Part shown: positions 22,607 to 61,683 of the stretch, in pieces
How the letters are laid out: every line of letters starts with the position of its first letter
Position numbering within the stretch: the first letter of the stretch is position 1
Notes under the pieces: generated by a model
The model's database searches: none
What the model saw: the letters and a program-made list of their open reading frames with translations, nothing else
What the model was told of the DNA's origin: nothing
Program-made: the position numbers and the translations under genes
DNA from: a virus
Virus record (IMG/VR): IMGVR_UViG_3300036939_000023
Location: 64,001 to 128,000 of that record
Length of the DNA stretch: 64,000 bases
Direction: 5' to 3' (one strand)

Positions 22607-23464
22607 TTAAAACTCGTATTCTCTACCTACTTTAAATACAAATAAACCTAACTTATTCCAACAGTTTCTAATTACACTAGGTCTGTCATCTAATACAAAT
22701 TTAACATTGTAGTAAGGTTCAATATGTTGATAATATAATTCTTCTTTAATTACATAATCTTTTCTACTATCTCCAGTAGCTCTCATTAGTAATAAACCAT
22801 TAGGAGCTTTATTGTTAATTAAGAATGTTCTAGTAGGTTCTTCATATTTCTGTTCTCTACCAGTTAAATAAATTATTGTGCAATCATTACTATATCTATT
22901 AAGTACATCTAATACTTCATTGCAAACATCATCTTTATCACAAGTAGAACAATCAAAGTAACTTCTACCATGATTGTTTAAAGCTAAAGTGCCATCTAAA
23001 TCTACTAAGATACAATTAGCTTTATTACTATCTATTTTTCTACTAACTGGTTTACAAACAAAGTCATAATACTGTTTTAAAATTACATCTTTACCTACAC
23101 TATTTAATCTCTGCAAATCTTGTTTAATACAAGTTTCTATAGATACATCTAAAAATGACTTAATCTCTACTGTTGCTTTATCTTTTACTAATTGTCTAAT
23201 ACGTTCTTCATGTTTAGGTGCTAAATTAGTGTCTGCAACTATAATATTTTTACTTTCTTCAATAGCTGCTAATATAATTGCATCTCTTATTTTAAGTACA
23301 AAATTTTCATTTCCTTTACTATATTTGCCATTATCTAACATTAGACGTAAATCATCTTTGCATACAATTTTAGTATTTGAATGTTGTTTAATGTATTCTT
23401 TAGCCCAATAACTTTTACCACTACCACTAAGTCCTATAGTTAAAATTACAGTTGGGTTGTCCAT
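22607..23464 (-). CDS. polynucleotide kinase/3'-phosphatase, T4 Pnk-like
   Basis: 285 aa. The N-terminal kinase P-loop IGLSGSGKS near residue 11 is followed by CKDDLRLML and an arginine-rich lid. The C-terminal phosphatase has the DxDGT motif ILVDLDGTLA near 148, TGREQKYE near 200 and VLDDRPSV near 260. It adds a phosphate to 5'-OH ends and removes 3'-phosphate or 2',3'-cyclic phosphate, the ends left by anticodon nucleases. It overlaps the second ligase gene by 19 nt, so the three genes are one unit. Confidence 0.93.
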   Translation of the reverse strand: MDNPTVILTIGLSGSGKSYWAKEYIKQHSNTKIVCKDDLRLMLDNGKYSKGNENFVLKIRDAIILAAIEESKNIIVADTNLAPKHEERIRQLVKDKATVEIKSFLDVSIETCIKQDLQRLNSVGKDVILKQYYDFVCKPVSRKIDSNKANCILVDLDGTLALNNHGRSYFDCSTCDKDDVCNEVLDVLNRYSNDCTIIYLTGREQKYEEPTRTFLINNKAPNGLLLMRATGDSRKDYVIKEELYYQHIEPYYNVKFVLDDRPSVIRNCWNKLGLFVFKVGREYEF

Positions 23465-24543
23465 TGATATAACTTCTTAATATCTAAATCTAATAAAAAC
23501 TGTTCTACTGTACTAACTCTATTTAAGTACAAATTAAATAAACAATTACTATAAAAATAGTCTTTAACACTTAATGCAAATTCTTTTCTATCTGTTATCT
23601 GTTTAGTTGTTATCCAAGTGTAGTTAATAGTTTCTACTAACTTGTTGTACTTATTATTTAAATTAACTATTTCTTCTTCTAGTTCATTAAAGTAAGTTAA
23701 TAGTTCTTCCGTTTCATTTCTTCTAATAACATCTAATAATGCATAAGGTGTATTAGTATTACTACGAATATGATGTAGAGCTACATATTCTTCACTCTTA
23801 ATCTTAATCCTGTTAAAGTTACTATCAACTACTACAAGTCCTTCTAACTGATTACCTTTAGTAGTACTTAAGTAATCTAGTATTTGTTGTATATTAGTTA
23901 ATTTATATTGTTTAACTATTTCATAATTAAGACAGCTAGCTAATCCAGCTAATGACATAACAGCAATTTCTACATAATCACTTAATCTTCTAGCACCTAA
24001 TAACACTAATTTAGGCTTTTTATATTCAACAACTACTTTATTGTAAATACTGCATAATTCAAATATAAAAGTATAATTATTATTACTTATAAAATGTGTA
24101 GGTAACTTATAATCTAACTGATTAAAGACTCTCCAAAACAATTGTTCAAAAGTAAAGTCATAACCATTAACTTCACCACCTGCATCTGCTTTACCACTAG
24201 TAGCTATAAGCCATTCTGAGCGGTAATAGAATAGTTGTACAAGACTTCCATCTAACTTCTCCTGAACAACTGCTGTAGACCAATCTATAACCTTCTCAGC
24301 TTCATTCTGTCCATAGTTATAAAATCGTTTAAATGGATAACTAATTACTTTCCAATCATCATCTTCATCTAAAATAATTCCTCTACATTCTTGTACTACT
24401 GGATGATAAGTAGGTGACTTAATTTGATCATATTTAAGTAATACTAAATTAGGATATTTGCTATGTCTATTATGTTTAATACCTAATTCAGTTTCTAACT
24501 GTTCTAGTGAATTATTACTTAAGTAGCTTTGTATTTCTAACAT
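23446..24543 (-). CDS. RNA ligase, T4 Rnl1-like
   Basis: 365 aa. QECRGIILDEDDDWKVI near 53 and YPFKRFYNYGQ near 72 are typical of the Rnl1 N-terminus. Motif I is VQEKLDGSLVQL near 95, motif III TFIFELCSIYNKVVV near 160, motif IV LEGLVVVD near 238, motif V RIKIKSEEYVALHH near 250. Rnl1-type enzymes re-join tRNA halves after Pnk has healed the ends. It is first in the repair cassette. Confidence 0.88.
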   Translation of the reverse strand: MLEIQSYLSNNSLEQLETELGIKHNRHSKYPNLVLLKYDQIKSPTYHPVVQECRGIILDEDDDWKVISYPFKRFYNYGQNEAEKVIDWSTAVVQEKLDGSLVQLFYYRSEWLIATSGKADAGGEVNGYDFTFEQLFWRVFNQLDYKLPTHFISNNNYTFIFELCSIYNKVVVEYKKPKLVLLGARRLSDYVEIAVMSLAGLASCLNYEIVKQYKLTNIQQILDYLSTTKGNQLEGLVVVDSNFNRIKIKSEEYVALHHIRSNTNTPYALLDVIRRNETEELLTYFNELEEEIVNLNNKYNKLVETINYTWITTKQITDRKEFALSVKDYFYSNCLFNLYLNRVSTVEQFLLDLDIKKLYQWTTQL

Positions 24544-24552
24544 ATTCTAATT

Positions 24553-24632
24553 CTTAGATGTATTAAGCTGTAAGGCATCTAAAACAGTCTTTGATATAAA
24601 ACTATCTTAAATGCCTCCTAAAAGCTTATAGG
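24553..24632 (-). other. long imperfect hairpin before the RNA ligase gene
   Basis: In the minus-strand transcript AAGCTTTTAGGAGGCATTT can pair with AGATGCCTTACAGCTT across a 25-30 nt apical region. There is no U-tract. It lies between the membrane-protein gene and the Rnl1-like ligase, so it may be an mRNA processing or stability element. Confidence 0.35.
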
Positions 24633-36835: not shown

Positions 36836-37005
36836 TTTCTTACTCTCCTTTTCTTAATTCTGTAACAGTATTCAGGAGCATTATTTCTGTACTCTCTTAA
36901 TCTTTGTCTAGCTTCTTTGTAACTAGATTCACAGGTAGTTACTTCCCAACAGTTGTAGTAGTAACCTTCAATGTTATATTCATCAACTGTTTTTCTGATG
37001 TACAT
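36832..37005 (-). CDS. small basic protein, 57 aa
   Basis: MYIRKTVDEYNIEGYYYNCW then ARQRLREYRNNAPEYCYRIK. Resembles short phage proteins with a beta-hairpin, one helix and R-rich end. The stop overlaps the YopX start as ATGA, so the two are coupled. Confidence 0.65.
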   Translation of the reverse strand: MYIRKTVDEYNIEGYYYNCWEVTTCESSYKEARQRLREYRNNAPEYCYRIKKRRVRK

Positions 37006-37706
37006 TAGTAAATACCTTCAGTTACATCAAAACTAAGCTCTGATAAATCAATGTTAGTTTTTACATGAATACTAGTAAGGATTCTAGCTACTTCTTTCAT
37101 ATCGCAAGCATCTTTAGCTTTCTTATATCTTTTTCTTAATAACTTGTTTTCTTCATGTACTTTGTCAATAAACTCCAGTAAATCTTCTTCACTATTAGTA
37201 TTCCAAACAATACTAAGATACTGACTACCTTTACCTACAGTCTCATTAGCCACATGTTTGAACATATGACATCTTCTCTTAAGCTTCATTAGCTTATCTT
37301 GAATGTACTTAGTAGTTTTTACATTTGGATTATCTATGTAATGTATTGCATCTATTACTATTAAATTGTTGTTATAAATAAATACAAAATCACCTAATAA
37401 ATGATCTTGTAACTCTTGGTAGTTAACATTATTAATGTCTAGTACTAATCTACGTACTTGTTTGTTATTTACTGATACTAATACTTCTGTACCATAAGAA
37501 GCTATTAGTGTATCTAGTACATTTTTGTGATTAGTTACTAACTTAACATTATTTTTGTTATGAATATCTTTTTTGTTATTTAGGTAAATCTGATATAGTT
37601 TTTTACTACCTAAATTAACTATTTGTAACTCATTGTTTTTATGAGCATAATTAATGTAATCTTGTAACTGATTCTCTCCAACGTAACTGTTTGTTGAAAT
37701 GTACAT
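37005..37706 (-). CDS. hypothetical protein, 233 aa
   Basis: An N-terminal helical part (YVGENQLQDYINYAHKNNEL), then long beta-rich middle (VRRLVLDINNVNYQELQDHL; GDFVFIYNNNLIVIDAIHYI) and a basic, helical C-terminus (NKLLRKRYKKAKDACDMKEV). Behind its own promoter and structured leader. No family recognised. Confidence 0.6.
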   Translation of the reverse strand: MYISTNSYVGENQLQDYINYAHKNNELQIVNLGSKKLYQIYLNNKKDIHNKNNVKLVTNHKNVLDTLIASYGTEVLVSVNNKQVRRLVLDINNVNYQELQDHLLGDFVFIYNNNLIVIDAIHYIDNPNVKTTKYIQDKLMKLKRRCHMFKHVANETVGKGSQYLSIVWNTNSEEDLLEFIDKVHEENKLLRKRYKKAKDACDMKEVARILTSIHVKTNIDLSELSFDVTEGIY

Positions 37707-37728
37707 TGATCTAACCTCTTGTAATCAA

Positions 37729-37780
37729 AAGAAAATAATAGTTACTACTTGCTTAAGGTAATAACTATTACTAAATTATA
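37729..37780 (-). promoter_or_regulatory. promoter box and 5'-leader hairpin before the 233-aa gene
   Basis: Minus-strand TTTTTTGCATATAATTTAG places a -10 (TATAAT) at 37775-37780. The transcript would start with AATAGTTATTAC / GTAGTAACTATT, a perfect-type hairpin followed by TTTTCTTTT and then the RBS AAGAGGTTAG. The hairpin looks like an intrinsic terminator inside a leader, so it may attenuate. Confidence 0.45.
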
Positions 37781-44744: not shown

Positions 44745-44817
44745 TAGCTCGTATTGGAATTGAACCAATATCTTCTTAGTTATGAGCTAAGTGCATTAAC
44801 CATTATGCTAACGAGCT
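44745..44817 (-). tRNA. tRNA with CAU anticodon (Met or lysidine-Ile)
   Basis: Cloverleaf read on the minus strand: acceptor AGCTCGT / ACGAGCT, D-arm GCAT...ATGC, anticodon stem CTTAG / CTAAG with loop CTCATAA (anticodon CAT), T-arm ATTGG TTCAATT CCAAT, discriminator A. No CCA is encoded. It could be tRNA-Met or the tRNA-Ile that is modified to read AUA, which would suit the AT-rich codon use; I cannot decide between them. Confidence 0.9.
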
Positions 44818-46768: not shown

Positions 46769-47137
46769 CTAGCTGTATTTACTAATTAAGTCTCTGATTT
46801 TAGCAGTCTCATTGTACTCAGCATAAGACTGTTTAAGCTCACATTCAATTTTACTCAAGTGGTTAATGTCATCTTCAATTTGTTCTGCTGTGTAATGGTT
46901 ATTTAGCCATAAATATCCTAAACTATCTGGGGATAAAATAGTTTGTTCAAACCACCTCGGAAACTTCACTCGAATACCATACTTAACACCACTTAATTCA
47001 CGTAAATGCACTAACTCATGTTTTAGTAAAGGTAACTGTAAATACACAGTAAAAATATTTGAGTATTTATTAGCTATTACTTCAGCTAATTGCTTAATCA
47101 GTTGTTCTCTTTCATTCTTCAGTGTTTTAGCAGACAT
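46769..47137 (-). CDS. hypothetical protein, 122 aa
   Basis: MSAKTLKNEREQLIKQLAEV and HYTAEQIEDDINHLSKIECE with a central VYLQLPLLKHELVHLRELSG; helical. Contains a 20-nt stretch that recurs in the non-coding gap at 45.99 kb. Unknown. Confidence 0.65.
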   Translation of the reverse strand: MSAKTLKNEREQLIKQLAEVIANKYSNIFTVYLQLPLLKHELVHLRELSGVKYGIRVKFPRWFEQTILSPDSLGYLWLNNHYTAEQIEDDINHLSKIECELKQSYAEYNETAKIRDLISKYS

Positions 47138-47217
47138 TGAATTATCCTCAAATAAACAACAGAGTATTTATTACTCTAGCTAGCTAATCAGTTGTTACTA
47201 AATAGCTAGTACAGTAA

Positions 47218-49534: not shown

Positions 49535-49614
49535 AATACCTACTACTAGATTTGCACTAGTATCTCCTAAAATATGAAATTAGTTGCATTACTTATGCTA
49601 AGTAGGCTAGTTAA

Positions 49615-51629: not shown

Positions 51630-51663
51630 AGAAAAGACCCCTACAACTGAATGCAGAGGTCTT
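51630..51663 (-). terminator. intrinsic terminator
   Basis: Minus-strand AAGACCTCTGC / GTAGGGGTCTT (G-U pairs) with a 7-nt loop, then TTCTTATG. Preceded by the box AATCTAACCTCTAC. Confidence 0.7.
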
Positions 51664-51713: not shown

Positions 51714-53777
51714 TTAATTAGTTTTAGAAATTGACGGCGATTCATGTTTGCTTCTTTTAACTACTATTGGATTATTCTTGAGTAGTGGTATCTCTAGTTC
51801 TAGTGTAGTGAAGATTCTAGTCCAGTCCAGTTGCCTTGGTTCTATTCTGCATCCACTAGTTAATATAATACCTAACTCATGTAAAGCTAATACAATCTCA
51901 TGAGGTAAGCCTAGATCATAAGCAGCTATTTGTTGCTCGTATTTTACTTTCTCATCAATTAAACCTCTGAGTTCTTTAGCTATATCTTCTTCCTTAACCA
52001 CAGTTACAGCCAAACCATTATCATCTGTAATTACTCTTTCATTAAGTAAATGAAACTGTTGTGTTTTATTGTCTTCTCTTTGTTTTCTCAGTTCTTTAAT
52101 TTTGCTTGATAGCTTCTCAATATGACGTTTGAAGCTTAACATTTTACGCTCTAAGTCATCAGTCATGAAGCCACTATTTAATTTAGTAACTCTAGGACTG
52201 TAAAAAGTTAATATATCTACATTTGATCTTGCAGATTTTATCCATATCTGTCCTACTTCAGTAGCTATTGAAGTTTGCCTCTCAACATAAACAATATTAG
52301 CTAGCACGTCTTTAAAGCTAGAATGTGGCTTAGCTTTATTGTTGCTCTCTAAATAAAATAGCCTCAGTTCGTAGTTATTGGTTTCAGCTAGCTTTATGTA
52401 GTTTGCCCCCTTACCTCCTTTATTTGTATTTTTAACACTTTTAGGTCTACCACTAGAGCCAAGCATATTAGAGTGCTTGACTTCCACTCTCTCAATAACC
52501 TTAATCTTGTTAGCTTCCATATACTGGGAAGGTTTTTTACCGCTAGAATCGTTGGCTACCTTAAAAGTGGTATCATTGGTCATTCTTATTTTGTTATTTA
52601 ATCTTCTGCTATCAATCTCCTCAACCAATACATAGCTACCGAAGTTATCAGCATTAAGTCTTAGTCCACCTGCAACTATTCTCATCCAGTCATTAGAGAT
52701 GTTAAAACTGGTACGTTTGAGAATATGTGAAATAACTACTAATTTCCAGTAACCACAAAAAGCAGCGTATCTGGTATAGCCACTCATATCTACTTCAATG
52801 TCTAGTAATTTAAATAACTCTCCTAACTTAATCTGAACATAAACATCAGTTACGGGAATTACTCTCTCATCAACTCTAGTTAATACAACGGCTTTTTTGT
52901 TATGGCTTCTACCTTTTATATCAACGTGTGGATCGTCAAATAGTTTAATTTTTCTTTCAAACTTACCAGTAACCTTATCAGACTTACTAAAAGCTTCTCT
53001 AACTGACTCAATAACCTGTCTGCTGTAATTACGTCTTAAGCCTGTCAGGAAGTCTTCTAGATGTCTCTCAGGAAACTCTAAATAAATGACCCTAACCCAA
53101 TCTTTAAATGTTTTGATACTCTTACTGGAATAATTGCCAGTATTTTGTTGTTTAAAGTTAGCAATACCTAGAATCAATTGGTTGGCTTTATTAGTTTCTC
53201 TCGGTAGTTGTATTGACTTATAAGCTACCTTACCTGTCTCTAACTGCTTGTCAGTAAGTACTTGTTGTTCTTTAAGTGAGAAGAAGTAGTTAGCTAAGTT
53301 AACCCAATCAAAAGTAAACAATTCTCGGACATCCTCCATTACTTGATTAACTGATTTAAAAGCAACTTCATAATTAGATGTCTTTGTGATAATAAAAACA
53401 TCCTGCAACAATTCAGAATATAGTAGTGCTTTATTGTTAGCTGGAAACTTTATATCCGTTACTTGGTAAGTTCTGTAAAACCAAAGTTTATTGGACAGAA
53501 TGAAATCAATAAATGAATCAGCCGTGTAGTTAGGCTCTAAAAGGATTGTAGGTGCCTTAGATACCTCAGTGATACATTCATCTTTAACAACAGCTTCATC
53601 GGTTACAGAAGCTTCTAGAGCAGACTTAATGTTATTTAGTAGTTGCTGCCATGTTTCAGTTTTACTCCAATTACCGGAGATAGTAGCCGCCTGGGGTAGT
53701 ACCTTAGCTTCACTAGCAGAAATAGAAGATAAATTGAGTAGTTGACAGATTTCAGCTTTGATTGAGTTAATAGACAT
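51714..53777 (-). CDS. large unknown protein, 687 aa, with SAP-like start and coiled coil
   Basis: Start ATG 53777 (MSINSIKAEICQLLNLSSIS); the earlier frame opens with TTG inside the leader. The first 50 residues, SIKAEICQLLNLS ... GNWSKTETWQQLLNNIKSAL, recall SAP-type or cyanobacterial plasmid DNA-binding N-termini. The middle is basic with FLTGLRRNYSRQVIESVREA and SFNISNDWMRIVAGGLRLNA. A long coiled coil lies near 545-590 (KRHIEKLSSKIKELRKQRED). I see no nuclease, ATPase or recombinase motif that is convincing. It is the largest gene of a six-gene, GC-richer block and might be a DNA-binding or structural protein. Confidence 0.7.
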   Translation of the reverse strand: MSINSIKAEICQLLNLSSISASEAKVLPQAATISGNWSKTETWQQLLNNIKSALEASVTDEAVVKDECITEVSKAPTILLEPNYTADSFIDFILSNKLWFYRTYQVTDIKFPANNKALLYSELLQDVFIITKTSNYEVAFKSVNQVMEDVRELFTFDWVNLANYFFSLKEQQVLTDKQLETGKVAYKSIQLPRETNKANQLILGIANFKQQNTGNYSSKSIKTFKDWVRVIYLEFPERHLEDFLTGLRRNYSRQVIESVREAFSKSDKVTGKFERKIKLFDDPHVDIKGRSHNKKAVVLTRVDERVIPVTDVYVQIKLGELFKLLDIEVDMSGYTRYAAFCGYWKLVVISHILKRTSFNISNDWMRIVAGGLRLNADNFGSYVLVEEIDSRRLNNKIRMTNDTTFKVANDSSGKKPSQYMEANKIKVIERVEVKHSNMLGSSGRPKSVKNTNKGGKGANYIKLAETNNYELRLFYLESNNKAKPHSSFKDVLANIVYVERQTSIATEVGQIWIKSARSNVDILTFYSPRVTKLNSGFMTDDLERKMLSFKRHIEKLSSKIKELRKQREDNKTQQFHLLNERVITDDNGLAVTVVKEEDIAKELRGLIDEKVKYEQQIAAYDLGLPHEIVLALHELGIILTSGCRIEPRQLDWTRIFTTLELEIPLLKNNPIVVKRSKHESPSISKTN

Positions 53778-53858
53778 TGATTTAAACCTGAGTAGTGTTA
53801 GTTGAGTATAATTACTCAATATCCCTTACAGTCACTAACTAAAAGGGATAGTCAATAA

Positions 53859-54335
53859 TTAAATCTCAGTAGTTACTTCTACATTATTAAAGTAATTATC
53901 AACTTGATCAATGATTGAGTCTACTAGTTGCTGATACGTTACATTGCTCTGATAAATACTATTACCCCATTTACTCATGGGTCTTGAGAAACATTTACCT
54001 CCTGGATTAGTAATAATATGGCTGAGGCTAGTTACTTCATGACCTGAAAACTCAGAAGACTTTTCAACTAACAGCTTATTCAACTTCATCTTTAACAAAC
54101 TAAGAATCCTTTGTGCATCAAAGTAATACTTACTATGACAATCGCAGTAAGCTTGATGTAATTTTTCCTCTAACTGATAACTTAGACTCTCCTTAATTTT
54201 TATTTGAGAAACATAATCACACAATTCATTGTAAGGGGACTCGATGATTTCCAATCCTAGACTAATCAAGTATTGCTTATCGATAGGTTTTAATTGAGTT
54301 AAAGCATACTGTCTGGAAATATTAACTGTAATCAT
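53859..54335 (-). CDS. hypothetical protein, 158 aa
   Basis: Helical N-terminus (SRQYALTQLKPIDKQYLISL) with a central Cys/His patch (AYCDCHSKYYFDAQRILSLL) and a GHEVTSLSHIITNPGGKCFS segment that could bind metal. The ATG follows TTTGAGGTTAGATC, the leader typical of this block. Unknown. Confidence 0.6.
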   Translation of the reverse strand: MITVNISRQYALTQLKPIDKQYLISLGLEIIESPYNELCDYVSQIKIKESLSYQLEEKLHQAYCDCHSKYYFDAQRILSLLKMKLNKLLVEKSSEFSGHEVTSLSHIITNPGGKCFSRPMSKWGNSIYQSNVTYQQLVDSIIDQVDNYFNNVEVTTEI

Positions 54336-54416
54336 GATCTAACCTCAAATAGTTGTATTAGAGTAATTAACTCTATCTAGCTAACAGTCTTTAAACTAAT
54401 AGCTAGAGACAATTAA

Positions 54417-55367
54417 TTAAGCTTGCGGCTGTTCTGTTGTCTCTGTTGTTTCTGTTTTTGGTTCAGTAATTACCCAATCTTTCTTTCTGAGATAAGCAAG
54501 TATCTGTGGCTTAGCTTTCAGGTTTTTAGAAGCATGTTCCCAAACAGTTACAGACTTCTCTTTGATTACAGACAGTAGAGAATCATAGTTTAAGTCTTTA
54601 AGTTCCTGTTCAGTAATCCAAGGTTCAGTAGGGATATCGTTGTTAATCTCAGTAGCTACGGCTTCTATTGTTGTAACTTCTGGATCAGTTGGCGGTACAT
54701 AAACAGTTGAGCTAATTTGTTGAAGTTCTCGTTTAACTGCTTTCTCAAGTGCTGGAATATTGACACCTAACATTTTTAATTCAACGTCAACAACCTCTCG
54801 TAATTTGTTCTCGAAATTAGAGATAATTTGATCCCTTACATCAGCTTCAAAGAAACCCCAACTGATATCCTTGATAACTTCAGTAACTAACTTGATCCAC
54901 TGATCTCCTGTGATAATTCTCAACTCTGGTGCTGAAATCAAGTTAACTGTTGATGCTTCACCTTTAGTCAAACTCATTGCTCTCATGCCTAAGCACAAAA
55001 TAAATAGTTGATTGTTGCCAAGCTTAGTTAACTGATTAATGAGTGAACGATAAAGGACTTTACTATCATCCATGAAAAACACTTTCAACAACTTCTCGAA
55101 TTTGGCATCCCCTGTTATAGCAAGCCCGGTTTCATTGCTCAATTGAATGTCAGAGATTTTTTTACCATCCTTTACTACCTGGTAAGTAAAGCCAGTATCC
55201 GTCTCAATGCTGAACGGGTATTTCTCAGCTAGTGCCATATCAGGAGTTGTTTTAATGTTCTTTGCACTCAAGTTGAAGGGGAAGATAGTACGTTTTTCTT
55301 GTAGTGCTAAAACATCCGTTGCGGCTAGTTCATCAATTTGAGGAAGGAGAAATTTGATATTAGACAT
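54417..55367 (-). CDS. hypothetical protein, 316 aa
   Basis: The N-terminal half is mixed, with TDTGFTYQVVKDGKKISDIQ and helices (VLYRSLINQLTKLGNNQLFI). The C-terminal 50 residues, LKDLNYDSLLSVIKEKSVTV then WEHASKNLKAKPQILAYLRK, look like a SAP/Rho-N-type three-helix fold. The leader ACTCATTAAGGATTC is shared with neighbours. Function unknown. Confidence 0.65.
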   Translation of the reverse strand: MSNIKFLLPQIDELAATDVLALQEKRTIFPFNLSAKNIKTTPDMALAEKYPFSIETDTGFTYQVVKDGKKISDIQLSNETGLAITGDAKFEKLLKVFFMDDSKVLYRSLINQLTKLGNNQLFILCLGMRAMSLTKGEASTVNLISAPELRIITGDQWIKLVTEVIKDISWGFFEADVRDQIISNFENKLREVVDVELKMLGVNIPALEKAVKRELQQISSTVYVPPTDPEVTTIEAVATEINNDIPTEPWITEQELKDLNYDSLLSVIKEKSVTVWEHASKNLKAKPQILAYLRKKDWVITEPKTETTETTEQPQA

Positions 55368-55453
55368 TTGACTTGAATCCTTAATGAGTAATGGTTGATT
55401 GTTCGTAACTATTTTAGGTTTTAGCTTTTGCCTAGTTACCCACCTTAGCTAAG

Positions 55454-55729
55454 TTAGATGTCGTAGTCTTCTAGAATCTGTTGATATTCTTCCTTGGAAA
55501 TGACTATCCAGTTAACTTCACCTAATGGCCTAGTTTCACCCGTGATCAAGTTGGTTGCTATTGTTTCTTTGTCCCCCTGACCATACTTATTGTTTAATAA
55601 CCTTTGCTGATTATCCCAAGTCCACTCAGGGGATATGTACCTATAAAAATGAAAACAATCAAAGTAGTGATGGTATTTAACTAAGTTCCCTTTCGGCGCA
55701 TTAATGTGTTTGTGTCCTAGTAGCTTCAT
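55454..55729 (-). CDS. hypothetical protein, 91 aa
   Basis: Start ATG 55729 (MKLLGHKHINAPKGNLVKYH) after ACTCATTAAGGATTGAATCA, the block's shared leader; the upstream frame begins with TTG. Contains KYHHYFDCFHFYRYISPEWT, rich in His and aromatic residues. Unknown. Confidence 0.6.
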   Translation of the reverse strand: MKLLGHKHINAPKGNLVKYHHYFDCFHFYRYISPEWTWDNQQRLLNNKYGQGDKETIATNLITGETRPLGEVNWIVISKEEYQQILEDYDI

Positions 55730-55797
55730 TGATTCAATCCTTAATGAGTGTTTGAGGTAATCCAGATTTTTAAGGTTCAACTGCCAACCTAATTTAA

Positions 55798-56472
55798 TTA
55801 ACGACTCTCTAGTTCAGTTCTTATGGCTTGCAGTTGATTAATTAAGTAAGTGATGTCATTGAGATTCATTTGGTCTAAGGGAAGTTCTATTTTTTGCCTA
55901 CCGCCTAATCGTTTATCTTCACCGTTAATCCTTAAGACTTCTCTATCTAGTGGATCTTTATCTAGCTTGGCGGTTAGTATTGACTCTGGCATTTCTTTAA
56001 CTACTGTCTCTTCTGGTGGATAAGGATTGCCTAAGAAGCAAATCTCCTCTAATTCCTTGAGCTTGACGTATTTCTGACTACGAATAATCTTAACGGTGTT
56101 AACCTTGCCGCTATTAGTTCGGATTGGCTCTACTAAATAATAACCACCTTCAAGTTTTAGGTAGACTTCACAATCTTCTTTAGGATAAGTATCTTGACCC
56201 CAGACAAATTTAGTACCAAGGGGGAGATATTCTTTAGTATCCTCATCTACTTGAGCTAGGCTTGGTTCCTCTATCTGCTGTTCTTGAATAAATGCTTCTA
56301 CCATTGCGAGTGACTTACGGAAAGCAAATAACCTGCCTTTAGTTTCTGCTATCTCTCGACTACAGTTAGTAGTATATTTATCAGCTTCTAACTTGTTAAG
56401 CTTATTCTCTTCTTTGAGAATTGTAGCCTTAAGCTCTTTAACTAACTCGTCAGTTGATGGGATGAAGTACAT
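55798..56472 (-). CDS. hypothetical protein, 224 aa
   Basis: An N-terminal coiled coil (LKATILKEENKLNKLEADKY) is followed by a beta domain (EVYLKLEGGYYLVEPIRTNS) and a helical C-terminus. Leader ACTCATTAGGTTAAATC. No family recognised. Confidence 0.6.
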   Translation of the reverse strand: MYFIPSTDELVKELKATILKEENKLNKLEADKYTTNCSREIAETKGRLFAFRKSLAMVEAFIQEQQIEEPSLAQVDEDTKEYLPLGTKFVWGQDTYPKEDCEVYLKLEGGYYLVEPIRTNSGKVNTVKIIRSQKYVKLKELEEICFLGNPYPPEETVVKEMPESILTAKLDKDPLDREVLRINGEDKRLGGRQKIELPLDQMNLNDITYLINQLQAIRTELESR

Positions 56473-56549
56473 TTGATTTAACCTAATGAGTGTTGGCGAG
56501 TAGCTGCTTTAACCTTTACTTGCAGCTAGTAGTTTTATAGGTCAAACAC

Positions 56550-57911
56550 TTAAGCTAACTGCAATCGGTTCTCATGGTTAAGCCTCAATAGCTTAATGTA
56601 GTCATTGATACTAGGTAATGGCTGATTGATGTAACTGCTAGTCATGAAGTAGATAATAGTGAACCAAGCGGAATGTACTAAACTTCTTACCTCACTGACA
56701 TTTTCGTTTAACCCCAGTAGGTATAGATAACACTCCATTAAGTAAGTCCACTCAGTTAGTGATGTAAACAGTTGAAGCTTAGGTGTTAGCTGAAACGTAA
56801 GGACATTACTAAAATCAATGTGTTCTATTTCTTCCTTTGTAAATAAGGGTTGCTCAACTTCAAAGTTCCCAGTTCCTTGATTAAAACTAATGGCTTCTTC
56901 CTTGGGTAAGTAACAATTAAGCTGACTGACTAACACTCGACTAGCAAAGTAATCTTTAAGTAGTTGCCTGAATTCTGATTTATTGTGATAATCAAATTCA
57001 ATTTTAATTACCTTGCCGTTAAGGGAGTAAATTTCATTCTGTGCTATTGCTCCAACTTCAAAGTCAAAACTTCCGCTAAGTAATTCATAGTCACTACAAT
57101 CAACTAACCGCTTAGGATTCCAGTTTAAATCGTAAGTGAATAGCTCATCAGCTTGAGAATGTACTATCACATAACGAACTGTACTAAGCATTAATGAATG
57201 TTCGGGTGTTGCGTAATCTTCAGACTCGGTTAAGTTGTAGTGCTGCATTAGTTGCTGCTTAATGTTTACTGGGTTAACTTCAAGTACTCGATAGAAGCTT
57301 CCTGGGAACATTAATTCAGCCGTAAGCTTATCGGTGTAAAGACTATTGATTAATTCCTCTTCAGTTACCTCTTGTAAGTCTAAGAAAGTGTAATCATCCT
57401 TAATTACAACTTGAGGATGTTCAGTAACTACTACTAAGTAACTAACCTCTACTGAAGAATTTTTAGTTACCTCTGTAACCCCACCACACTGACTCCCTAA
57501 ATTCTCATTTACCCCCTCCGCCTCAATATCTAAAATAACTTCCAAGTCTTCCTTAACATATTGCTCAGTAGCTTCAATCGTTAACTGATTATCTAGTGTC
57601 AACTTAATAACACCGATAACCGAGTAACCTTCATAAAGTTCGATGTAAGTATGACCTAACTGTATCTTGCTGTAATCATCTTTGATTAGGTCAAAAGCTT
57701 GATTAAGTAACAAGTAGTCGGGAACTAACTTAACTAGTAAAGTGTTCCAACTATAGGTCTCTGTGTAGTTAAGAAATGACCATGCTTCCATTACTTCAGC
57801 TAATTTTGAATTTCTTTTGGCAACTGTTTTTAAATCCGCTAAGGACTTAATTGGATAATCTAACAAGTAAGTCAGATTCTTTTTAACTTCTGCGATTGTG
57901 TAATTAATCAT
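56550..57911 (-). CDS. large unknown protein, 453 aa
   Basis: Mostly helices and short strands (TLVKLVPDYLLLNQAFDLIK; SGSFDFEVGAIAQNEIYSLN; LYLLGLNENVSEVRSLVHSA). The leader contains AGAGGTTAGAACG. It is the first gene of the GC-richer block and starts next to the longest non-coding region. No family or active-site motif recognised. Confidence 0.65.
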   Translation of the reverse strand: MINYTIAEVKKNLTYLLDYPIKSLADLKTVAKRNSKLAEVMEAWSFLNYTETYSWNTLLVKLVPDYLLLNQAFDLIKDDYSKIQLGHTYIELYEGYSVIGVIKLTLDNQLTIEATEQYVKEDLEVILDIEAEGVNENLGSQCGGVTEVTKNSSVEVSYLVVVTEHPQVVIKDDYTFLDLQEVTEEELINSLYTDKLTAELMFPGSFYRVLEVNPVNIKQQLMQHYNLTESEDYATPEHSLMLSTVRYVIVHSQADELFTYDLNWNPKRLVDCSDYELLSGSFDFEVGAIAQNEIYSLNGKVIKIEFDYHNKSEFRQLLKDYFASRVLVSQLNCYLPKEEAISFNQGTGNFEVEQPLFTKEEIEHIDFSNVLTFQLTPKLQLFTSLTEWTYLMECYLYLLGLNENVSEVRSLVHSAWFTIIYFMTSSYINQPLPSINDYIKLLRLNHENRLQLA

Positions 57912-58685
57912 CGTTCTAACCTCTGTAACTTGGTGAGTAAGCTTAACTAATACAACTTATTTTAGTAAGCTCTAGTTAGTTGGCTTCGTATCGTTCGTAA
58001 CCTCTCTAGAGTAGTTAACTGTAAAACCTTAATCTCTTAAGTAAGACTTAGTTAACTGAAGTAGTCTTAATCATTTAACTTAACTGCCTAAACTGTTTTA
58101 GCTTAATGCAGTAAAAATCTTGAATTAGTGCTTAGTTGTTTAAGCGTCCACCTAAATGGGCTTTAACTTTAGGCTATGGCAGATAACTCCTTAATCGTGC
58201 GAGAACTAGGTTCAGCTCTTTAGTTGTTTCTCTGTTTTCTCTGACTCTTTAACTATTACATTTATTCCAGCTATCGACAACCTTAATTACTGTTTCCTTT
58301 ATGCAACAACTTATACGACAACTAATGTTACATAACTGATTATGATTTGACAGTTTGGTGTTTATGCTGTAACCTCTTCCTTTTATTTATGTTTGAGCTT
58401 TAACGTTGATTGGCTGTAATAGATACTTTGTTCTAAAGTCTTCTCAGTAATGGCTATAAGGTTGTTTAAGCTTAGCTGTACTAACTACATAGGCAATCTA
58501 GCGTTAAGAACATTGTAAGGGTTATGGAAGGTTTTAGGTATATGCAATTTAGTGATTATGCAATTAGTTGCATAGGGTAGGTGTAATTTAGGCTGCTTAA
58601 TACCTTAAACAATAGCTAAAGCAAATTTAACTAAAACAACTAGAATACTAAAATAGAATCATGTGTAGTAACTAAAATAGCAAGT
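57912..58685. other. longest non-coding interval (774 bp), divergent gene starts
   Basis: The leftward gene block and the rightward terminase-like gene start from its two ends. I found no ORF above a few codons on the minus strand. It has more G and C than the flanks and the paired motif ATGCAA-TTAG-TTGCAT (next entry). It must contain divergent promoters and could be an origin or packaging region; neither is proven. Confidence 0.6.
58541..58574. repeat. iteron-like pair with inverted repeat
   Basis: TATGCAATTTAG (58,541-58,552) and TTATGCAATTAGTTGCATA (58,556-58,574). The second contains ATGCAA-TTAG-TTGCAT, a perfect inverted repeat. Typical of an operator or replication-protein site. Confidence 0.5.
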
Positions 58686-59372
58686 ATGGTAAACACTGAA
58701 AAAGAACAGCCTAAAGAATACTTTAAACGAAAAATACAAGAAGAAGACATTAAAGCTATTAAACATAGTTTTATCAATGGAGAAATGATTGATGGAAAAA
58801 AGGTTTATCCAACTTTAACTGAATTAGTAAATAGATACAATAACGATCATAAAGATAATCCAATTAGTTATAAATGGATAGCTACATATTCATCTAATGA
58901 AAAATGGGGTAAACAAAAAACATTATTACTAAATAGAACTAAAGAACAAAAAAGTGAGCAAGAACTACGTGAACTACTTAGTGTTAGTAGCACATTAGAA
59001 GCAACAGTATTAGATAACGTTAATAAAACACATAAACTAATTAGCTTGTATTTAGAGCAATACAGAGACTACTTTGGTGATGATTATGACAGTGAATACA
59101 AAAACTTAGACATTGAAGATCTAGCAGATATTAACATTAAAGATGTAATAGGTATTGCTGGAGCTACTGAAAAACTGTTAGGTATTCAACGTAAAGTATT
59201 AGGTGAAGAAGACTTTGCAACTAGTATTTATCAAGAAATTAAAGCATTAGAAAAAGATAGTGTTAGTAACAAAGATGAAGATGTACTTAAAGAACTTAAA
59301 CAACAAATTAGTGAATTAGAAAGAGAACGTAAAAAAGTAGAAGCTTTAAATAAAAATAAACAAAACAGTTAG
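58686..59372 (+). CDS. possible terminase small subunit
   Basis: 228 aa. KAIKHSFINGEMIDGKKVYP then TLTELVNRYNNDHKDNPISY and KWIATYSSNEKWGKQK is a helix-turn-helix followed by the W-A/Y-x-x-W-x-x-Q-R-like tail seen in many small terminases, then a coiled coil at the C-terminus (LKQQISELERERKKVEALNK). It would bind DNA for packaging. No large terminase lies in the window, so the call is tentative. Confidence 0.45.
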   Translation: MVNTEKEQPKEYFKRKIQEEDIKAIKHSFINGEMIDGKKVYPTLTELVNRYNNDHKDNPISYKWIATYSSNEKWGKQKTLLLNRTKEQKSEQELRELLSVSSTLEATVLDNVNKTHKLISLYLEQYRDYFGDDYDSEYKNLDIEDLADINIKDVIGIAGATEKLLGIQRKVLGEEDFATSIYQEIKALEKDSVSNKDEDVLKELKQQISELERERKKVEALNKNKQNS

Positions 59373-61011: not shown

Positions 61012-61683
61012 ATGTACTTATTACAACCTGTTACTGCTGAATTTAGAAGTGGACTAAATAAATTACTATTACCAATTAAAAAGACTAAATTAGGTAAAGT
61101 AGTTAGAAATATAGTAGCTGGCGTTAAACGTAAATTTAAAGTTAAATATTATCTAAGAAGAACTAAAAGTGGTAAGACTATTACTGTTAATGTAGATAAA
61201 ACTAATGTACCTAATACAGTAACTAAAGTAGCTACTAATTTAGAAACTAAACCTAAATTCTTAACATTAAGTATACCAGCAGATAAGTATAAAGGTGAGT
61301 ATTTAATGAAAGGTAAAAGTTATAAGGCAGATGAATTATTTGATATAAATAGTTATAGATACGTTGGAGATAAACCATTACTTACGGGTAAGAATGCAAA
61401 ATCTAAATACAAAACTACTAAAACTAATAAAAGTGAATATGATACTAGATTATTAAATATAGATATTAGTAAAGCACCTAAAGAGTTAGTAGCTAAATTA
61501 GGTAAAGGAGCTAGTAGTATTGATAAATTAGATGCTTATAGAGAATTAGAAAGATTAGGTTTATTAAATAAGAAAAATGTTAAAGCTACTAGAAGATATA
61601 AATTAGGTGCTGATGAAGATATTATCTCTCAAGGTTTTTATAAATCTAGTAGTAAATTAAGTAAATTTAGTAAAATGTCATAA
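61012..61683 (+). CDS. basic protein, 223 aa, unknown
   Basis: Strongly basic (GKVVRNIVAGVKRKFKVKYY near 29; YKTTKTNKSEYDTRLLNIDI), with an N-terminal hydrophobic start and a Lys/Ser-rich tail. No ribosome-binding site is obvious but AATTATAATTATG places a promoter box on the start. Could be a virion or DNA-condensing protein. Confidence 0.6.
   Translation: MYLLQPVTAEFRSGLNKLLLPIKKTKLGKVVRNIVAGVKRKFKVKYYLRRTKSGKTITVNVDKTNVPNTVTKVATNLETKPKFLTLSIPADKYKGEYLMKGKSYKADELFDINSYRYVGDKPLLTGKNAKSKYKTTKTNKSEYDTRLLNIDISKAPKELVAKLGKGASSIDKLDAYRELERLGLLNKKNVKATRRYKLGADEDIISQGFYKSSSKLSKFSKMS

Follow-up and report, generated by a model that had tools for sequence, protein, structure and literature searches.

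The two-hairpin leader described here is a real, conserved RNA element. It was found in the window analysed, a stretch of 64,000 nucleotides (nt) that covers bases 64001-128000 of the IMG/VR virus record IMGVR_UViG_3300036939_000023 (148,569 bases). The element precedes two genes (A and B) of a block of six orphan genes, A to F, on the minus strand at positions 51,714 to 57,911, as well as a third gene at 47.1 kilobases (kb), about 4.5 kb beyond the block. Its two hairpins are shown by covariation, it is placed before start codons and it occurs across several phages. These features go beyond the initial annotation, which had noted a repeated leader sequence in a block of higher GC content. The two-hairpin leader is apparently undescribed.

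In the gaps before A and B, two hairpins lie next to each other. The first has a stem of 8 base pairs (bp) that continues, after a U.U mismatch, for another 5 bp up to a small loop, and the second has 6-7 bp. When the 47.1-kb copy is included, hairpin 1 has 7-8 bp, a mismatch and 5 bp, and hairpin 2 has 6-7 bp. The leaders of A and B align end to end and differ by five compensatory pair changes, with no one-sided changes between standard pairs; one end pair of hairpin 2 has been lost in B relative to A. Compared to shuffled sequences, the folds have z scores of -2.4 (A) and -3.0 (B). The two-hairpin form is the minimum-energy fold of the leader of A. The minimum-energy fold of the leader of B retains hairpin 1 and swaps hairpin 2 for a stem covering the ribosome-binding site (Shine-Dalgarno), so that the two folds are alternatives in B. 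A covariance model built from the leaders of A and B only (R1) identified the third copy, which ends at the ATG of gene 46769-47137, and a possible fourth copy, GAGGTTAGATCA-ATG, in the leader of gene 37005-37706 (Table 1); E-values of the covariance models are rough throughout. With a descriptor of shape only, the leaders of A, B and the 47.1-kb gene were the top three in the genome, and local shuffles gave one to six lower chance matches each.

The leader is also found in other phages. Sequence comparison suggests that the virus is cyanophage-like and a distant relative of the Pseudanabaena phages Pam2 (ON014754) and PA-SR01 (MT234670), to which its DNA polymerase, TerL, capsid and portal proteins are about 26-36% identical. 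The two record ends overlap and the genome is thus probably complete. Replication genes lie in a leftward arm, which meets a rightward arm at a non-coding divergent junction, a layout shared with Pam2 (1.4-kb junction) and PA-SR01 (about 1.8 kb). Pam2 (p=0.0008) and PA-SR01 (p=0.04) both have unusually strong structure in the leaders close to the junction. A clear match to the element lies at PA-SR01 136401-136534, where it reads TAGCAGCA-T-AGTAT-TAA-ATACT-T-TGTTGCTA, then AGAGC-AATCAC-GCTCT. In Pam2, such a leader lies at 134033-134122. In G001, a 146-kb IMG/VR relative, the two-hairpin element precedes an early-arm gene, and further candidate copies are present. A degenerate pattern matched only three contigs in all of IMG/VR, namely G001, which has two copies, and a pair of Pam2-like fragments, always just upstream of a gene. 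A second descriptor, run over 1.27 Mb of loci, gave six matches, all before a start codon in these phages. Seven elements from four phages were aligned by hand; in this alignment 133 of 141 cells were paired (94%), compared to 58% with permuted partners. The covariance model R3 was built from Pam2, PA-SR01 and G001 only and holds no sequence of this genome. Its best match in the whole genome was the leader of A (E=0.0016), followed by a match with an E-value of 1.2. Across phages, hairpin 1 has about 12-13 bp and in many cases a 1x1 mismatch, and hairpin 2 has 5-7 bp, carries GAG[U/C] in its 5' arm and lies just before the ribosome-binding site. The downstream genes vary between phages; it is the leader that is conserved, not the genes. 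An Rfam search returned only a tRNA between 48 and 60 kb of the window, even at E<=0.5, and no family in Pam2 or PA-SR01 from 100 kb on. Some candidates were rejected. Opposite-strand matches of R3 and of another model, R2, were echoes of the near-palindromic hairpin 1, and a DNA pattern derived from A and B matched just two contigs in IMG/VR, both times in a coding region of an unrelated phage.

How might the leader act? About one in eight of its pairs are G.U, and these are found on the coding strand only (the other strand would have A.C), which points to the sense RNA. That the hairpins are DNA-level features instead, such as operators or replication signals, is highly improbable. Their arms are palindromic and lie in a presumably control-rich part of the genome, but the arm sequences vary while pairing is kept, and the G.U pairs again speak for RNA. 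The shape is kept although the sequences of stems and loops drift, so recognition of shape is favoured over recognition of sequence. In B, the 47.1-kb gene, Pam2 and PA-SR01, the ribosome-binding site is predicted to be part of an additional or competing stem or to lie next to one. Formation of the two hairpins can therefore change its exposure, which favours post-transcriptional control. In the mechanism proposed here, the leader would act in cis in the mRNA and would control the gene behind it post-transcriptionally, most likely by acting jointly on ribosome access and on the decay or processing of the mRNA. A, B, the 47.1-kb gene and the early-arm genes of related phages would all be led by one conserved RNA element. 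In another reading, the leader is an operator: a phage protein acting in trans would bind it, repress or activate the gene behind it and so coordinate a regulon. Its position directly before the ribosome-binding site, the unrelated genes behind its copies and the GAGGTTAGA box (found three times on the coding strand, always directly before ATG) would all fit an operator. Typical sequence-read operators differ from the leader, whose loop and stem sequences are not conserved, and there is no candidate binding protein; this reading is considered rather unlikely.

The GAGGTTAGA box and a second one, ACTCATTA, belong to the repeated leader that the initial annotation had described for the block. 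The recurrence of such boxes was borne out. ACTCA lies within 45 nt upstream of six of the seven starts of the block and the 51164 gene, compared to 11 of 233 elsewhere. It occurs only 13 times on the coding strand of the whole block, giving a binomial probability of 2.6e-6 for a motif that was itself chosen from these leaders. The 3' arm of hairpin 2 reads ACTCAA in A and ACTCTA in B, so the ACTCA box partly reflects the RNA structure. What did not stand is a single leader particular to the block. The 47.1-kb copy lies outside it, and within it the two-hairpin form of A and B is accompanied by different leaders in C to F, such as the ACTCATTAAGGATT box that C and D share without strong structure. 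The "shared leader" thus covers two things. Other leaders were also observed. The most structured leader found, 24544-24632, stands before gene 23446-24543. Its hairpin has about 20 pairs (z -7.5), and the leader carries a AAGACTGT stretch that is present in the leader of B as well. A second leader type, approximately TTTCC-YACGRTA...TATCGTG-WGGAGTGATG, lies before early-arm genes of Pam2 and PA-SR01.

The six block genes are co-directional. The starts of A and D were corrected to the ATG codons at 53777 and 55729, not the upstream TTG codons that begin the longest open reading frames (ORFs). Flanked by a terminator behind A and by the junction before F, the six genes appear to form a single transcription unit with F as its first gene. 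The block therefore looks like a promoter-proximal operon that heads the leftward arm and is read leftward from the junction to the terminator. From its gene order, this operon is presumably early. The earlier proposal that the six genes form a module agrees with these boundaries, with the common direction and with the distinctive codon use described below. The presumed early position also brings in the most interesting rival for the leader, a cis-acting put-like antitermination RNA. In such a case the nascent RNA would bind host RNA polymerase, and early-arm terminators would be read through. Two hairpins spaced 0-1 nt apart, a presumed early arm, several copies and occurrence in related phages are all consistent with this possibility. 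It is nevertheless judged decidedly unlikely, as the copies lie tens of bases from start codons inside operons and not one per promoter, and the unit ends at an apparently intact terminator.

The block was initially annotated as GC-richer than its flanks and distinct in codon use, and both statements are confirmed. A 6.2-kb segment over the block has a GC content of 35.4%, whereas the other segments of the 148.6-kb record have a mean of 27.8% (standard deviation 1.3%) and a maximum of 31.7%. For the single block genes, GC is 0.32-0.38 and GC at third codon positions (GC3) is 0.28-0.43, compared to a GC3 of mostly 0.08-0.25 elsewhere. By leave-one-out codon log-odds for all ORFs of >=100 amino acids (aa), the six genes hold ranks 1-6 for deviation in codon use. 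The rise is not that of a clean island, however. Across some 40 kb left of the block, GC3 increases from ~0.16 to 0.21 approaching the junction, and with the block excluded GC3 correlates with distance from the junction (Spearman rho -0.40, 98 genes, p=3.6e-5). The drop is abrupt only at the junction, from 0.34 in gene F to 0.14 in the next gene. The dinucleotide signature of the block is unusual, yet the tape-measure region is the most extreme stretch.

The initial annotation had suggested acquisition of the block from a plasmid or host. An unameliorated cassette from a plasmid, host or higher-GC phage would account for the sharp break at the junction and for the six top-ranked codon outliers. 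For the proteins searched, neither phages nor plasmids yielded a donor (the block proteins were not run against host genomes), GC3 rises gradually on the other side of the block, and the leader also precedes the 47.1-kb gene outside the block and genes of related phages. A cassette is rather unlikely and a foreign origin of the block is not supported, although an old acquisition may have taken place. The higher GC is better read as the steepest part of a gradient that rises toward the junction, due to codon selection on the genes expressed first or to position, than as a sign of recent import. This preference follows from the gradient toward the presumed early promoter, the lack of a donor and the resident leader. 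In half of the phages analysed in one study, early and late genes were reported to be under selection for different codon compositions (PMC5683454).

The analysis as a whole favours an early operon, a GC gradient due to selection or position and a conserved cis RNA leader that exerts post-transcriptional control, a combination that is given about an even chance of being correct. Several observations weigh against it. The two-hairpin form is missing from C and D, E has one hairpin and F a long leader. Nothing covers the ribosome-binding site in the leader of A. Structured leaders are spread along this genome, with no difference in z scores between those near and those far from the junction (p=0.14). 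The hand alignment of the seven elements was made to fit the structure. R3 misses B and the 47.1-kb copy at E<=10, and the cross-phage homology therefore rests on A and the shared architecture. The reverse search, in which R2 places the known G001 element first at E=0.1, is no more than suggestive. Finally, PA-SR01 is closely related to Pam2 (94.7% identity over 57% of the PA-SR01 genome; PMC9382816), so the two count as one lineage and the independent lineages number about three. A bolder and more doubtful reading can be put forward tentatively. The leader may be an undescribed, shape-read cis RNA regulator of a cyanophage lineage, either a polymerase-binding antiterminator or a ribosome-access or processing switch, that acts on fast-changing early genes, and the six orphans may belong to a takeover regulon that it marks.

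Searches of Pfam, PHROGs, NCBIfam and PADLOC gave nothing above noise for the block proteins, in keeping with the first description of them as lacking recognisable families. They had also been called large, which is true of A, C and F only and not of B, D and E. Matches to AbiEii (E 0.015) and PDC-S21 (E 0.005) were weak and judged to be due to chance. A and C have no relative among 50,697 phage records, and A, C and F none in IMG/VR or in seven related viral records. Plasmids gave no credible match for A, C, E or F, and a PDB sequence search gave nothing credible for A, C or E. The six proteins were not found in Pam2, PA-SR01 or G001, and none has a convincing paralogue in this genome. SAP/Rho-N-like regions had been proposed for two proteins; neither the C-terminal stretch of C nor the N-terminus of A or F has a SAP or Rho-N match in Pfam even at E<=10, and the proposal was not confirmed. 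AlphaFold models made without an alignment were uninformative (predicted local distance difference test 32 for A and 37 for C).

Phage early regions are full of fast-changing orphan genes, and little is known about their control in freshwater cyanophages. Word searches of the full texts of Pseudanabaena phage papers, with not every term used in each, returned nothing on promoters or stem-loops of these early regions. A conserved leader marks the genes of one regulon even when their proteins have no relatives, and helps to place gene starts. The coordinates of the features are collected in Table 1.

Table 1. Features of the block, its leaders and its surroundings (window positions unless a phage is named; pI, isoelectric point).
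Feature	Position	Strand	Details
Possible fourth copy, hairpin 1 only	37707..37778	-	R1 E=0.15; z -3.1
Third two-hairpin leader	47138..47217 (element 47160-47209)	-	R1 E=3.5e-4; descriptor scan
Intrinsic terminator just past gene A	51634..51663	-	30-nt hairpin, 12 pairs, 5 G-C, then T-rich tail
Gene A	51714..53777	-	687 aa, basic (pI 9.2), orphan; start re-called at ATG
Leader of A	53778..53858	-	hairpin 1 53820-53850 (8 bp, 1x1 U.U, 5 bp, loop 3)
Leader of A, hairpin 2	53802-53819	-	7 bp, then Shine-Dalgarno and ATG
Gene B	53859..54335	-	158 aa, orphan
Leader of B	54336..54416	-	hairpin 1 54376-54407 (8 bp, 1x1, 5 bp, loop 4)
Leader of B, hairpin 2	54359-54375	-	6 bp, then GAGGTTAGATC-ATG
Gene C	54417..55367	-	316 aa, acidic (pI 5.0), orphan
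Leader of C	55368..55453	-	ACTCATTAAGGATT box common to D; weak structure only (z -0.07)
Gene D	55454..55729	-	91 aa from ATG, orphan
Gene E	55798..56472	-	224 aa, acidic (pI 5.0), orphan
Leader of E	56473..56549	-	one 7-bp hairpin 56501-56528 (z -1.7), then AACACTCATTAGGTTAAATCAA-ATG
Gene F	56550..57911	-	453 aa, strongly acidic (pI 4.6), orphan; first after junction
Divergent junction, non-coding	57912..58685	.	774 nt; presumed control region
First gene of opposite (rightward) arm	58686..59372	+	weak similarity (E 0.001-0.004) to Pam2/PA-SR01 protein
Second leader type	PA-SR01 132339-132485, 135966-136061		
Second leader type	Pam2 131993-132139, 133583-133687		

Several other features of the genome were observed. 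The first gene of the rightward arm encodes a candidate small terminase, whose counterpart in Pam2 and PA-SR01 is encoded beside the TerL gene. The closest relatives seen are two IMG/VR fragments of 4.3 and 6.4 kb (L014 and L015), with a portal protein 77% identical to that of this phage. Two tRNA-Met(CAT) genes lie on the minus strand at 44745-44817 and 49537-49607. ORFs 50-856, L003:947-1207 and L006:7952-8764 are similar to the same small ORFs of Pam2, PA-SR01 and G001, and probably encode GIY-YIG-type homing endonucleases. At least nine proteins of the rightward arm start with MYLL, mostly followed by a lysine-rich stretch. Their genes are 61012-61683 and, on the plus strand, those at L002:7006, 7752, 9553, 10257, 10586, 16999 and 17572 and at L006:16337 (outside the window). 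The shared start is possibly a targeting or cleavage signal of virion proteins.

The leader can be compared to known systems. In phage T7, early mRNA carries hairpins that are processed by RNase III. Like the leader, these hairpins are intergenic, lie ahead of early genes and keep their shape more than their sequence. Each is one long hairpin in T7, whereas the leader has two short ones side by side. The put RNAs of phage HK022 measure about 70 nt, fold into two stem-loops and are found downstream of early promoters (PMC9378689). As far as their description allows, putL and putR resemble the leader in having two adjacent stem-loops in transcripts that are early, or presumed early in this virus. 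They differ in that the leader is found in several copies directly before start codons inside operons, and membership in this class is not claimed. Pam2 and PA-SR01 share with this virus the distant homologues of DNA polymerase, TerL, capsid and portal and the two arms that meet at a non-coding junction. They have 40% GC, compared to 28% here, and encode none of the six block proteins. Both carry the same two-hairpin leader, and both are cultured phages in which it can be tested.

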